Source: a virus. From it: DNA of 47,202 bases. The position numbers were made by a program, and so were the translations under genes. The stretch lies in the IMG/VR virus record IMGVR_UViG_3300025536_000021, positions 1-47,202 of that record. One strand, given 5' to 3'. The notes under the pieces were generated by a model. The model was given only the letters and a program-made list of their open reading frames with translations. It made no database searches and was not told the DNA's origin. Positions 40,517 through 45,367 of the stretch are shown here, one piece after another. How positions within the stretch are numbered: position 1 is the first letter of the stretch; the number at the start of each line of letters is the position of its first letter.

Positions 40517-40947
40517 GCCTTAGCTACGACGAAATGGTCAACCTCGGCAAGGTGGTTAAGCTCAATACTCCAGCGCCTCCACCTGGAGAACCTTCCAAGA
40601 AGCTGGACGAAATCAACTGGGACACAACCCTAGGCAACCCTCATGGCGTCGTGGGGGATAATGGCATCCGAGAGCCCGCCAACGACCTCGCCCGCTATAA
40701 GGACATGGTGAACCACCCCCCGCACTACACATCCCATCCGTCAGGCATTGAATGCATCGATGTGGTTCGGCACATGCCCTACAACATCGGCGTAGCCATG
40801 GCCTATCTCTGGCGGCACGAACAAAAGGGCGGAACCGAGGATCTTAGAAAAGCAATATGGCACATAGAGGATCAAATCAAATGGCGCGAGAAGTGTTCTA
40901 CGGCGAAATCGTCAGGATCTGACGCGGACGGCTATCATGGGTGCTGA
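40513..40947 (+). CDS. DUF3310 protein
   Basis: 144 aa from ATG 40513. The domain VNHPPHYTSHPSGIECIDVV...IGVAMAYLWRHEQKGGTEDLRKAIWHIEDQ is the DUF3310 (SaV-like) signature, in residues about 70-130. Widespread in phages; nucleotide-related roles are suggested but unproven. The N-terminal 65 residues are less conserved. Ends overlapping the next gene. Confidence 0.85.
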   Translation: MSLSYDEMVNLGKVVKLNTPAPPPGEPSKKLDEINWDTTLGNPHGVVGDNGIREPANDLARYKDMVNHPPHYTSHPSGIECIDVVRHMPYNIGVAMAYLWRHEQKGGTEDLRKAIWHIEDQIKWREKCSTAKSSGSDADGYHGC

Positions 40948-41220
40948 GTGGGAGATCAAATACCATCCTCTCAACAAGCCAATCCCTGAAGGCTGGGAGA
41001 GACATGACGGGCTTGACGGAACACATCATGGGGATCACGCGACGTTTATTGTAAAGATGCGGGAAGACATTAAGGCACGTTATCCCGTGACCCTCGCTCG
41101 CTTAGCCGAATCTCCCACCCTGTGCGAATGCGGTCAGCCTCTAAAGACGATAGACGAGGGAGGGCATGTCAGGACTGCTTGCTGTGGTCGGATTTCTAGA
41201 GGGGTGTTGCGGGGATTTTT
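40937..41220 (+). pseudogene. Zinc-ribbon protein interrupted by the transposon
   Basis: MGAEWEIKYHPLNKPIPEGW...NIVKMREDIKARYPVTLARL-like helix, then CECGQPLKTIDEGGHVRTAC followed by CG, a CxC...CC zinc-ribbon pattern, up to residue 94. The frame runs into the insertion at 41221 and then continues through transposon sequence to 41644, which is not the native end. Joining the flanks at the target duplication restores an open frame to a stop near 43215, overlapping the opposite-strand genes. Confidence 0.65.
41213..41220. repeat. Target-site duplication, left copy (8 bp)
   Basis: GGATTTTT directly outside the left inverted repeat, identical to 43070-43077 outside the right repeat and in the same orientation. 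The length fits IS1-family insertion. Confidence 0.8.
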
Positions 41221-41236
41221 GGTAGTGTCTCAGTTT
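41221..41236 (+). repeat. Left terminal inverted repeat
   Basis: GGTAGTGTCTCAGTTT, complementary to 43054-43069. Inwards it continues GAC then TTAGGAATA (41240-41248). Confidence 0.8.
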
Positions 41237-41277
41237 GACTTAGGAATAAATTCCCGGAAGGCTAGACAATCTTGGTG

Positions 41278-41295
41278 GCGCCGACGTGTCGGCGC
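41278..41295. other. Perfect hairpin near the left end of the transposon
   Basis: 8-bp arms GCGCCGAC (41278-41285) and GTCGGCGC (41288-41295) with a 2-base loop. No T-run on either side. It may protect the element from outside transcription, or bind protein. Confidence 0.5.
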
Positions 41296-41325
41296 TCTAT
41301 TCGCAATAATGAGCGTATTTGCTCC

Positions 41326-41556
41326 TCAGAACGGAGCCGGTTTCGCTCCAACAGTTAGCGTTAGTTGGTCGGCGGGAGCACCGGGCACCATAACAACATC
41401 GAAACCAGCTTTGCCGAGTGCCACTGCCAAAGCGTGCGGCTCTTTATCGGATGTTGCCAGATCACCGATGCGCTCGGCAGTTTCCAGTGACATCCAGGAG
41501 AACCAGGAAAGCCACATACCTCTCCCCATGTGGTTCGTGCTTGGTTCTATGTTCAT
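41326..41556 (-). CDS. Hypothetical protein downstream of the transposase fragment
   Basis: 76 aa if started at ATG 41556 (ATGA overlap with the transposase-fragment stop). An internal ATG gives 54 aa beginning MSLETAERIGDLATSDKEPH followed by ALAVALGKAGFDVVMVPGAP, the more protein-like part. No family recognised. It occupies the place where the rest of the transposase would be in a complete element, but does not look like transposase. Confidence 0.45.
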   Translation of the reverse strand: MNIEPSTNHMGRGMWLSWFSWMSLETAERIGDLATSDKEPHALAVALGKAGFDVVMVPGAPADQLTLTVGAKPAPF

Positions 41557-41741
41557 AGTACTTTTGGGTGGAATTTTAGGAATTGTGTTTCTTTTGCGGG
41601 CGCAGCACCTCCGGCGTCAACAAGGAGCTTGGAAACGGTGTTGATCGACACGTCGCAGACCCGGGATATCGACCGCAGAGACGAACCCTCGACCATCATT
41701 GAAAGGATGCGAACGCGAGTTTCGAGGGGGAGCCGGTTCAT
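41553..41741 (-). pseudogene. IS1-family transposase, N-terminal fragment
   Basis: From ATG 41741: MNRLPLETRVRILSMMVEGS, SLRSISRVCDVSINTVSKLL, then VDAG. This is the N-terminal helix-turn-helix of IS1-family transposases common in Bradyrhizobium and relatives. After about residue 44 the match stops (GAAPAKETQFLKFHPKVL) and the frame ends at 41553. The zinc-finger and DDE catalytic parts are missing. A 9-bp inverted repeat GGGAGTCAA/TTGACTCCC (41754-41762, 41792-41800) spans its promoter region. Confidence 0.82.
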
Positions 41742-41815
41742 GTCTGTCAATATGGGAGTCAACGTCTATTTTGTCAAGCATTTTGCTCAGTTTGACTCCC
41801 AATCCTTTTACACAC

Positions 41816-41840
41816 AAAACCCTTGATTCCCAAGGGTTTT
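41816..41840. terminator. Bidirectional intrinsic terminator downstream of the tRNA-like gene
   Basis: 10-bp perfect stem AAAACCCTTG (41816-41825) and CAAGGGTTTT (41831-41840) with a 5-base loop. A/T-runs at both feet make it active in either direction. It lies 38 bases beyond the 3-prime end of the tRNA-like gene, as is common for tRNA operons. It also separates the passenger genes from the transposase fragment. Confidence 0.8.
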
Positions 41841-41877
41841 TGCTTGAAACGGGCGTTGTCAGTGACTATAAGAAGGG

Positions 41878-41950
41878 TGACCCCGGTCGGTTATTCTCCG
41901 ACGACCTCCGGCTTAGCAGGCCGGTGCTCTATGGGCTGAGCTACGGGGCC
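41878..41950 (-). tRNA. Degenerate tRNA-like gene, anticodon GCU, class I shape (probable pseudo-tRNA)
   Basis: Acceptor arms GGCCCCG (41950-41944) and CGGGGTC (41885-41879) pair with one G-U. The D stem is GCTC/GAGC with loop AGCCCATA, which lacks the G18-G19 pair. The anticodon stem CCGGC/GCCGG has loop CTGCTAA, anticodon GCT. Variable loop of 5 bases. T stem GTCGG/CCGAC with loop AGAATAA, not the TTC consensus. GCU would mean serine, but serine tRNAs have a long variable arm and this does not. The 3-prime end reads ACCC rather than ACCA. Folding is sound in all four stems, yet both tertiary-contact loops are lost. Confidence 0.6.
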
Positions 41951-41971
41951 ATAAGGAGTGAATGGACGGGC

Positions 41972-42058
41972 CGAGGCGGGGAGTAGCGTCCCCACCTACA
42001 GCCTCGACCGATCAGAATCTCCAACGGACCATGTGCTGCATGGTGCATGTCTCCTTTC
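41972..42058 (-). other. Hairpin and possible 36-aa reading frame upstream of the tRNA-like gene
   Basis: Arms CGAGGC (41972-41977) and GCCTCG (42001-42006), with inner GGGGA (41978-41982) and TCCCC (41989-41993), form a strong stem-loop. On the minus strand a frame of about 36 codons (MHHAAHGPLEILIGRG...) has an ideal AAAGGAGAC ribosome-binding site and ends inside the tRNA-like acceptor. It may be a leader peptide or chance; the 42007-42058 part has no other content. Confidence 0.35.
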
Positions 42059-42679
42059 TCATTCGGACGACTTATCGAGCCCCGGCGCGTCAACGCCGGG
42101 GTTCTCCGTTTCCGCCTCGGGCGGAACGAAGAACCAAGTGCGGCCCTTGCGTTGAACCTTCCCGTCTTGGGCAAGGCGGTACAACGTCATTCCGGCCGTT
42201 TTCTCATGGATTTCAGTATTGTAGACACGCTCAATATAGCGACGGAGGGCTGCGGCGCTCGTGCCCTCTTTCCCCGCTGTTTTTAGGCGGTCTAGGACAA
42301 TCTCCCGGATCGGGGGCCGCTTGGTGATTGGCTCAATAGCGGGCGGCGGTGGCGGCGTCGGAACCGGTGTCGATGAGATAGATGGTGAACGCGCCACTGT
42401 CGTCTCGGACATGATCCGCCCATCTGGCGAGATACGCCGCCGCACCTCAGTACCGTCGGGTAGGGTGAGATACCGGACGCGAGGGCGCTCTTCATCTTCG
42501 GGAAGTGCGAGCCGGATGCCGAAGACCCGCGCGGCAGCGCGCAGGTCGGCGATCTCGCGGTCAATGTCGCGATCTTGCATGGCAAGCGCTGTCATTGAGT
42601 GTCGGACGGCCTTTCGCCGGTCCAAAAGCTCAGCAAGCTTCTGTTTGATGACAGCTTCGGGAGATTCCGAGTCGCTCAT
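42059..42679 (-). CDS. Passenger gene: helical/winged-helix-like protein, 206 aa
   Basis: Residues 1-60 form a coiled coil (VIKQKLAELLDRRKAVRHSM...DRDIDREIADLRAAARV). Next comes a short beta region (RVRYLTLPDGTEVRRRISPD), then a Pro-rich linker (about 105-118) and a C-terminal domain IREIVLDRLKTAGKEGTSAA...LYRLAQDGKVQRKGRTWFFV that looks like a winged helix. I recall similar proteins encoded in Rhizobiales chromosomes. Likely DNA-binding. Minus strand, upstream of the tRNA-like gene. Confidence 0.72.
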   Translation of the reverse strand: MSDSESPEAVIKQKLAELLDRRKAVRHSMTALAMQDRDIDREIADLRAAARVFGIRLALPEDEERPRVRYLTLPDGTEVRRRISPDGRIMSETTVARSPSISSTPVPTPPPPPAIEPITKRPPIREIVLDRLKTAGKEGTSAAALRRYIERVYNTEIHEKTAGMTLYRLAQDGKVQRKGRTWFFVPPEAETENPGVDAPGLDKSSE

Positions 42680-42710
42680 CCATAATATATGGCGAGCAAA
42701 ATCATTAAAG

Positions 42711-42950
42711 TCAATCGCGCTGACTTCGTTTCCGCCCCCAACGACTCCTTGCCGCGTTGGTCGCGATCTCTGTTCGTTCCTCTGGAGACAGCTTTTCGGC
42801 CCGGGCCTTACCGCCGACTTTACCCCCCTTGGAGCGATTGGGGGCTTTCGAGGTGATGTCCTCGATCTCGCCCGTGGCGATCTTGCCGACCATGATGGCG
42901 GCGCCGATCACGTCAGCGGGTCTTTTCTCGCCTTTGGGGCCTTTTGGCAT
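42711..42950 (-). CDS. Passenger gene: small basic protein, 79 aa
   Basis: ATG 42950, MPKGPKGEKRPADVIGAAIM, then VGKIATGEIEDITSKAPN, GGKVGGKARAEKLSPEERTE and AARSRWG. A small, Gly/Ala/Lys-rich protein common in Bradyrhizobium-type genomes and sometimes annotated RNA-binding or histone-like; the activity is unproven. A TATAAT box (43038-43033, minus strand) just inside the right inverted repeat could drive it and the downstream passenger gene. Confidence 0.75.
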   Translation of the reverse strand: MPKGPKGEKRPADVIGAAIMVGKIATGEIEDITSKAPNRSKGGKVGGKARAEKLSPEERTEIATNAARSRWGRKRSQRD

Positions 42951-43053
42951 CAATTCTCTAGCTTTCCTGCCGAGTAACACTATGTCCTTAATTTGGGGCA
43001 GTGAAGCGCCGTTGATAACCCCTACGCAAGAGATTATATTCCTAAGACGCGCG

Positions 43054-43069
43054 AAACTGAGACACTACC
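43054..43069 (-). repeat. Right terminal inverted repeat
   Basis: AAACTGAGACACTACC on the plus strand, exact complement of 41221-41236. The inner block TTAGGAATA is also mirrored (near 43036-43044). Confidence 0.8.
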
Positions 43070-43077
43070 GGATTTTT
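43070..43077. repeat. Target-site duplication, right copy (8 bp)
   Basis: GGATTTTT, matching 41213-41220. It overlaps the stop codon (43076-43078) of the adjacent leftward gene. Confidence 0.8.
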
Positions 43078-44332: not shown

Positions 44333-45367
44333 CTACTCGGTTTTGTCCTTATTTTCTGCCAATTTCTCCCCTAGATTTCTGGCCTTGGCCCACTCCTGCC
44401 CAAGGGCCTCTGCATCCCGCGCCACTTCGCTTTGCTCTAGATGGAGATAGCGAAACATGGACTGCATGCTTTTCCACCCCCCCGCCTCCTTGATCCACTT
44501 CAATGACTTTCCGGCCTTAAGGCCACGAGATGCGAAGGCGTGCCGACCAAGTTTGTGGAATGAGTAGTAAGGGACTCCAGCGCGTTCGCATGTACGCCTG
44601 AGAGCCACACTGGCTGACTGTAGGCTGGCGTAGCCGAACAGTCTCTTCGAAGGTTGTCCAACTCCCTTTCGCCGATAAAATGCGCGACTATCATTGAGCA
44701 AAGACTTACATAGGTCAGGAAGAACAACCACCACGGGCACCCCTGTTTTGGTGCGGCCAATGTGGACACGATTATCCTCATCTACGTCTTTCTCCGTGAG
44801 CGCGATGGCTTCTCCGACGCGGCGGCCGGTGAGGGTGAGGAAGACGATAAGTGCTGCCAACTTGGGAGGCCCGTGACTGAGTACAGAATCGAACCACTGC
44901 TCATCAGGGATACTAATGGTTCCCCGGTGACTATCTTGGGGGCGCTTAAGGCCCCTAACCCCAATTGCAGAGAGCGGTGTGTAGATTGCTCTGTTAAGGC
45001 TTGACCCCTTCCACCCCGGATAGAGCTTGCTTGCCGCTTCCGTGGCTTTGGCTTGGTCGATTTCATCTAACGGTGTGTCCTTAAAGTGGGCTATCAGGGC
45101 CGTCACGAAGCGGTCGGACCGTCCTCGGGTGTTAATGTAAGTAAGCGCAGCTTCGGCAAATGTTGGTCCTCGCTTCTTGATTTTGCCGTGCGCGAGGTTC
45201 CAATAATATCGGTCGAGATCCGATGCCCGCTTGAGGGCGTCAGCTCGATTGACCGTCTTAAGGCTTCTTTCAATGCGGACGTTGATGATGTGGCCGGAGG
45301 CTTGCCTGGACGGCACAGATCCTCGCGCGAAATAGTAGCGGCCTTTCTTCCGTATCGTAAGAGACAC
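44333..45367 (-). CDS. int: Tyrosine recombinase (phage integrase)
   Basis: 344 aa. Catalytic residues visible: Arg in TLTGRRVGEA (about 182/183), His and Arg in HKLGRHAFAS (271 and 275), Trp of GGWKS (298), Tyr in MFRYLH (307). Residues 60-140 are the core-binding domain (TFAEAALTYINTRGRSDRFV...). Integrates the phage into, and with excisionase excises it from, the host chromosome. Full length. The N-terminal 88 codons overlap the excisionase frame. Confidence 0.95.
   Translation of the reverse strand: MSLTIRKKGRYYFARGSVPSRQASGHIINVRIERSLKTVNRADALKRASDLDRYYWNLAHGKIKKRGPTFAEAALTYINTRGRSDRFVTALIAHFKDTPLDEIDQAKATEAASKLYPGWKGSSLNRAIYTPLSAIGVRGLKRPQDSHRGTISIPDEQWFDSVLSHGPPKLAALIVFLTLTGRRVGEAIALTEKDVDEDNRVHIGRTKTGVPVVVVLPDLCKSLLNDSRAFYRRKGVGQPSKRLFGYASLQSASVALRRTCERAGVPYYSFHKLGRHAFASRGLKAGKSLKWIKEAGGWKSMQSMFRYLHLEQSEVARDAEALGQEWAKARNLGEKLAENKDKTE

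Follow-up and report, generated by a model that had tools for sequence, protein, structure and literature searches.

Why should a phage carry a gene that folds as a tRNA and has a serine-type anticodon, in a body without the long arm of a serine tRNA? The gene lies at positions 41878-41950, on the minus strand, of IMG/VR virus record IMGVR_UViG_3300025536_000021; the window, meaning the whole stretch analyzed, is this 47,202-bp record, a podovirus-like temperate phage whose portal is of the SU10 type. Sequence comparison indicates that the body is that of an alphaproteobacterial tRNA-Arg(UCU) whose anticodon has changed from UCU to GCU, and the gene is cargo of an IS1-family transposon. We see roughly even chances that such an element captured a tRNA-Arg(UCU) copy, which became remodelled as its cargo, that the element later inserted into a temperate phage, and that the tRNA acts in a mis-decoding tRNA-protein module. 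The tRNA and the hairpins on either side of it are:

41878-41950, minus strand: remodelled tRNA with a tRNA-Arg(UCU)-type body, GCU anticodon, D-loop AGCCCATA, T-loop AGAATAA, A73 and no encoded CCA
41975-41996, minus strand: hairpin just upstream of the tRNA, seen in the sequence; upstream folding z -2.5
41816-41840, minus strand: terminator-like hairpin downstream of the tRNA (AAAACCCTTG/CAAGGGTTTT), an inverted repeat with a T-run; negative in a strict scan

The Rfam tRNA model RF00005 matches the gene at 53.6 bits (E 7.6e-9; curated threshold 29), which identifies a tRNA cloverleaf, and ARAGORN labels positions 41875-41951 tRNA-Ser(gct). Read 5' to 3', the gene is GGCCCCG TA GCTC AGCCCATA GAGC A CCGGC CTGCTAA GCCGG AGGTC GTCGG AGAATAA CCGAC CGGGGTC A CCC. 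All four stems are fully paired, with 21 of 21 pairs intact, the minimum free energy is -34.1 kcal/mol (z -2.8), and the acceptor branch is of the usual 7/5 form; the 3' end reads ACCC. The variable loop has 5 nt, making this a class I tRNA rather than a long-armed class II tRNA-Ser, and neither G18G19 in the D-loop nor TTC in the T-loop is present to form the elbow contacts. A sequence-only reading, which gave no strand, had described just this combination (four folding stems, a D-loop without GG, a T-loop without TTC, a serine-type GCU anticodon, no long variable arm and a retained upstream hairpin) and had proposed the covariance-model check; its description holds throughout. The flanking terminator that it also reported corresponds to an inverted repeat that has a T-run, although no terminator was called there by the strict scan.

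Among 155 native tRNAs, the top matches to the gene are tRNA-Arg(UCU), at 77% identity, and the 20 best matches fetched from 240 alphaproteobacterial genomes are all tRNA-Arg, 19 with anticodon UCU and one with CCU. These nearest bodies rule out a serine tRNA stripped of its long arm. The body thus resembles tRNA-Arg(UCU) while the anticodon does not: U34 has become G, the D-loop GG has become a CC-type sequence with one deletion, and the entire T-loop, position 73 (now A) and the encoded CCA, which is lost, also differ. Altogether 17 differences separate the gene from the nearest native tRNA-Arg, 4-6 of them in stems, and they break none of the 21 pairs, whereas random change of equal amount breaks about 7 (P at most 5e-5). 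These results indicate a tRNA-Arg that was remodelled while its fold was kept, and not the decaying tRNA, or the random stem decay, that the sequence-only reading had entertained.

The gene lies within an element whose parts are:

41221-43069: non-autonomous IS1-family cargo transposon of 1,849 bp, recognized by a perfect inverted-repeat pair, a target-site duplication and a transposase remnant
41221-41236, plus strand: left inverted repeat GGTAGTGTCTCAGTTT, 16 bp, one of the pair
43054-43069, minus strand: right inverted repeat, 16 bp, perfect complement of the left
41213-41220: left copy of the 8-bp target-site duplication GGATTTTT, flanking the element
43070-43077: right copy of the 8-bp target-site duplication GGATTTTT, flanking the element
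41560-41741, minus strand: N-terminal remnant of an IS1-family transposase (MNRLPLETRVRILSMMVEGSS...), with decayed similarity continuing to 41391
41749-41777, minus strand: transposase promoter-like site TTGACA-17-CATATT, its position and TTGAC motif common to related elements
42059-42679, minus strand: ORF206 (P2), a coiled-coil plus winged-helix-like protein, co-directional with and directly upstream of the tRNA
42077-42104, minus strand: strong hairpin (inverted repeat) at the end of ORF206
42711-42980, minus strand: ORF89, an accessory protein with the motif GGKARAxxLxPEERxEIA, conserved across the transposon family
40937-41220, plus strand: phage open reading frame (ORF) apparently interrupted by the element; the joined empty site keeps the frame open (141 aa)

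Over 43-59 aa the remnant shares 65-81% identity with members of the family whose annotation is IS1 transposase, so that the element has the IS1-type transposase gene, terminal inverted repeats and 8-bp target duplication of that family; it is not autonomous, its transposase being reduced to the N-terminal part. A search for homologues of the interrupted phage ORF (141 aa joined) found none. The phage has a tyrosine integrase at 44333-45367, and its portal is closest to that of a Bradyrhizobium prophage (52% identity). Because the tRNA belongs to the transposon and 2.4 kb separate it from the integrase, we rejected an integrase attachment site (attP) as its explanation. The suggestion that the gene might be a mobile module is strongly supported: it is IS1-family cargo between perfect repeats and a target duplication, and relatives hold other tRNAs in the corresponding slot.

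The inverted repeat of the window element also ends elements with intact IS1-family transposases on Acidiphilium and Hoeflea plasmids. It occurs in 19 of the 240 alphaproteobacterial genomes, often as forward/reverse pairs (reversed control pattern, 0), and in 14 of 43 genomes of one order (reversed control pattern, one match). At 67 of 122 loci that we collected by transposase or repeat from phages, plasmids and bacteria, the ends can be recognised and the 8-bp target duplication is identical on both sides. Most family elements encode an ORF89-like protein together with variable cargo, some of it of toxin-antitoxin type: Peptidase_M78 with a helix-turn-helix, SocA/Panacea (SocA_Panacea), HigB and NYN.

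Ten of the approximately 120 related transposase loci carry tRNAs, listed here by anticodon and body:

L094: CGU on an Arg body
L118: CGU with a degenerate anticodon arm on an Arg body; NYN-type nuclease gene in the element
L273: GCU, class I, Arg-like body
L239: AGU
L261: UGC on a Glu body, T-loop ATCATAC
L246, 4773-4856: UUA (ochre suppressor) on a Leu body; little else in the element
L183, 3817-3914: UUA (ochre suppressor) on a Ser body
L184, 3758-3844: UUA (ochre suppressor) on a Ser body
L210, 4742-4889: irregular tRNAs in tandem, the second copy Glu-like, with a divergent IS1-type transposase downstream
L169, 826-976: irregular tRNAs in tandem, with a divergent IS1-type transposase downstream

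Except in L183 and L184, where it lies away from the transposase, the tRNA is just upstream of the transposase and on the same strand. The ends of L210 and L169 are undefinable and those of L239, L261 and L273 have no matching duplication, so for these five "inside" rests on position beside the transposase. When 80 IMG/VR loci were chosen by transposase only, 4 of about 10 independent tRNA places fell in the 400 nt just upstream of the transposase, a slot that makes up 2.1% of the sequence (P ~4e-5); a tRNA covariance-model scan found no further slot tRNAs. In none of 11 family tRNAs does the anticodon isotype agree with that of the nearest body, compared with 122 of 150 native tRNAs, with less certainty where the body match is weak; Glu bodies, for example, carry UGC or UAC. 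In L169 the first tRNA is without a normal D-arm and the anticodon loop of the second is 8 nt long (CATTACAA); the transposase there is split over two frames. The 130 nt upstream of family tRNAs are strongly folded relative to shuffles (median z -2.8, against -0.14 before 68 native tRNAs; P 7e-6). On a quick transposase tree, the eight tRNA-bearing rows are scattered and need eight changes, no fewer than with shuffled labels, which implies repeated capture or very frequent loss.

Three of these elements, L094, L183 and L184, encode homologues of one protein, P1 (265-275 aa, no Pfam match, winged-helix-like as judged by eye), whose gene diverges from the tRNA, the ~240-280 nt between them holding a short ORF and a hairpin. 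With P1 alone as query, IMG/VR yielded three contigs, of which two are near-identical; none has an IS1-family transposase or its repeats, and each has an adjacent tRNA-like gene. In the near-identical pair (L335/L336), P1 and the tRNA-like gene are divergent, as in the three transposons; in L334 the tRNA-like gene has a Leu-like body and an anticodon loop reading UGG, beside a transposase that we take to be IS1595-like. A search of 385 genomes added four P1 loci (L342 to L345), with divergent tRNA-like matches at L342 (E 0.0027) and L344 (E 1.5e-6). A tRNA-like gene thus stands beside P1 at 4 of 6 independent new loci, where we estimate ~0.2 at the background rate. Together with the three transposons, this is the recurrent protein-RNA linkage seen in toxin-antitoxin systems with an RNA partner. 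The tRNA-like genes at L334, L335, L342 and L344 are class II and lie outside the IS1-family transposon. The tRNA of L094, L183, L184 and L334 is preceded first by a leader ORF, short, basic and often beginning M-x-R-R, and then by a strong hairpin; L097 has P1, leader and hairpin without the tRNA. P2-like, very divergent proteins precede the tRNAs of L273, L169 and L210.

From this arrangement we infer that protein and tRNA may form a two-part module, toxin-antitoxin-like or defence-like, with a mis-decoding tRNA. In the proposed sequence of events, an IS1-family transposon would have captured a tRNA-Arg(UCU) copy, which was remodelled as cargo, and the transposon would subsequently have inserted into a temperate phage. 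The tRNA would be transcribed behind its hairpin and be aminoacylatable yet mis-decoding, as a missense or ochre suppressor, under the control of the winged-helix partner, so that harm or protection would follow only upon its release. The window tRNA retains A20, C35 and U36, which are established identity positions for arginyl-tRNA synthetase; charging with Arg is therefore predicted to be possible, and the GCU anticodon would then read AGU/AGC serine codons. The lost elbow contacts would weaken it and so limit its cost. More tentatively, and with less confidence than we place in the account just given, the family may represent a new kind of mobile toxin-antitoxin or defence module, a remodelled non-cognate or stop-reading tRNA under a small winged-helix protein and leader hairpin, spread by IS1-type transposition among phages and bacteria.

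Several observations weigh against a mis-decoding tRNA-protein module. The sequence-only reading had staked its case on homologues, and in the narrow sense there are none: a search for a sequence homologue of the window tRNA itself found nothing, and its homology with the relatives lies in position and design rather than in sequence. A tRNA is missing from most related elements, the bodies of L239, L273, L169 and L210 are weakly assigned, and the anticodon arm of L118 is degenerate. No convincing tRNA was found at the new P1 loci L343 and L345, nor at the P1-bearing elements L097 and L199. P2, the partner that adjoins the window tRNA, is poorly conserved; its linkage to tRNAs comprises only four divergent cases, and searches with it found no further relatives in IMG/VR and one weak match in genomes. 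The in-family association P values (0.004 for P1, 0.0004 to 0.0016 for P2) are biased, both proteins having been defined from tRNA-bearing elements. Finally, the checked genes of the elements with UUA tRNAs have no in-frame UAA, and we rejected readthrough by an element's own suppressor.

An alternative, which we consider unlikely, is that the tRNA is a nuclease-proof replacement or decoy, its altered anticodon and loops resisting anticodon nucleases or other tRNA-cleaving defences and so protecting the phage or the transposon's host. Phage tRNAs with anticodon-loop changes that predict anticodon-nuclease resistance have been described (PMC10264068), many family transposons sit in phage contigs, and the tRNA element L118 has an NYN-type nuclease gene. 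A replacement, however, should keep the anticodon that matches its body, and this is changed in 11 of 11 cases by nearest match; the loss of the D- and T-loop contacts also makes normal decoding by the window tRNA doubtful.

We doubt to a similar degree that the gene is a structural, non-decoding RNA in which a tRNA shape with hairpin and terminator, cut by tRNA-processing enzymes, shields the transposase promoter from upstream transcription. Such an RNA would keep its stems while anticodon and loops drift freely, as the anticodon arm of L118 and the window loops might suggest, and the tRNA does lie at a fixed 100-210 nt upstream of the transposase promoter with hairpins before and after. Yet a 7-nt anticodon loop and a normal T-loop are kept in most family tRNAs, most elements are without a tRNA, P1 and a tRNA are paired also where the IS1-family transposase is absent, and in L183 and L184 the tRNA is away from that transposase. 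Least probable is a neutral passenger, a captured host tRNA fragment hitch-hiking and drifting: the window tRNA has no homologue, its transposase is dead and most related elements do without a tRNA, but drift would hardly have spared all 21 pairs where about 7 should break, or have filled one slot recurrently with mismatched anticodons and hairpins.

Among known systems, the tRNA-Arg(UCU) of Alphaproteobacteria and Pseudomonas phage Persinger comes closest, with ~77% identity over the whole gene, an identical acceptor stem, a 5' half that is largely the same, and A20 kept. Unlike it, the window tRNA has GCU, no GG in the D-loop, T-loop AGAATAA, A73 and no CCA, and the Persinger copy adjoins its integrase like an attachment-site tRNA, whereas the window copy is transposon cargo. 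The nuclease-resistant phage tRNAs (PMC10264068) are likewise phage-borne with anticodon-loop changes; they keep their anticodon identity, in contrast to the window tRNA, in which the anticodon and both elbow loops are changed. Allo-tRNAs, especially the allo-tRNA(UAU) group, combine a body/anticodon mismatch with very diverse anticodons, ochre included, and one allo-tRNA pseudogene overlaps a transposon-related ORF (PMC7609411, Krahn, Fischer and Soll review). Family tRNAs share the mismatch and the ochre anticodon; they differ in their canonical 7/5 branch, several body types, IS1-family setting and adjacent protein partner, and the class I window tRNA has neither the 8/4 or 9/3 branch nor the serine-type long arm of allo-tRNAs.

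IS1-family insertion sequences with passenger genes, and transposase-less cassettes, resemble the window element in IS1-type transposase, terminal repeats, 8-bp duplication and cargo; its family differs in having a tRNA gene as recurrent cargo. To our knowledge, no tRNA is known as recurrent cargo of insertion-sequence transposons, and no tRNA-carrying insertion sequence was found in the literature searched, from which subscription journals were mostly absent, so novelty is provisional. If the proposal is right, transposons that repeatedly capture anticodon-changed tRNAs, among them ochre suppressors and Arg-type tRNAs that read serine codons, would carry mistranslation or the suppression of stop codons between phages and bacteria, and irregular metagenomic tRNAs, some allo-tRNAs included, would acquire a mobile setting and a protein partner open to testing. 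tRNA finders would also be assigning the wrong amino acid to such genes.

Two further sets of irregular tRNAs were set aside. Among 84,980 genomes we found seven class I GCU tRNAs (L018-L024), none close to the window tRNA; their D- and T-loops are intact apart from one TTA T-loop, and we rejected them as relatives, regarding them as sporadic anticodon changes elsewhere. One of them, L019, has two copies of a tmRNA/tRNA block; where one copy holds tRNA-Asn(GTT), the other has the GCT tRNA in the matching position. A tRNA-Thr(TGT) with T-loop ATCATAA occurs in a large tRNA array of Bifidobacterium longum megaplasmids (L002, 5010-5083; L004, 2996-3069), near an RNA ligase gene and, in L002, a FemA/B-type gene; we dropped it as a non-ribosomal lead, since the array is normal and the Thr anticodon matches. 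Within the transposon family, the ORF89-like protein (GGKARAxxLTPEQRxEIAxKAA, no Pfam match) is nearly always at one transposon end and is possibly a transposition accessory factor. Five loci (L115, L116, L117, L131, L139) are elements of ~110-250 bp with family inverted repeats and matching 8-bp duplications, derivatives of the transposon that resemble miniature inverted-repeat transposable elements.
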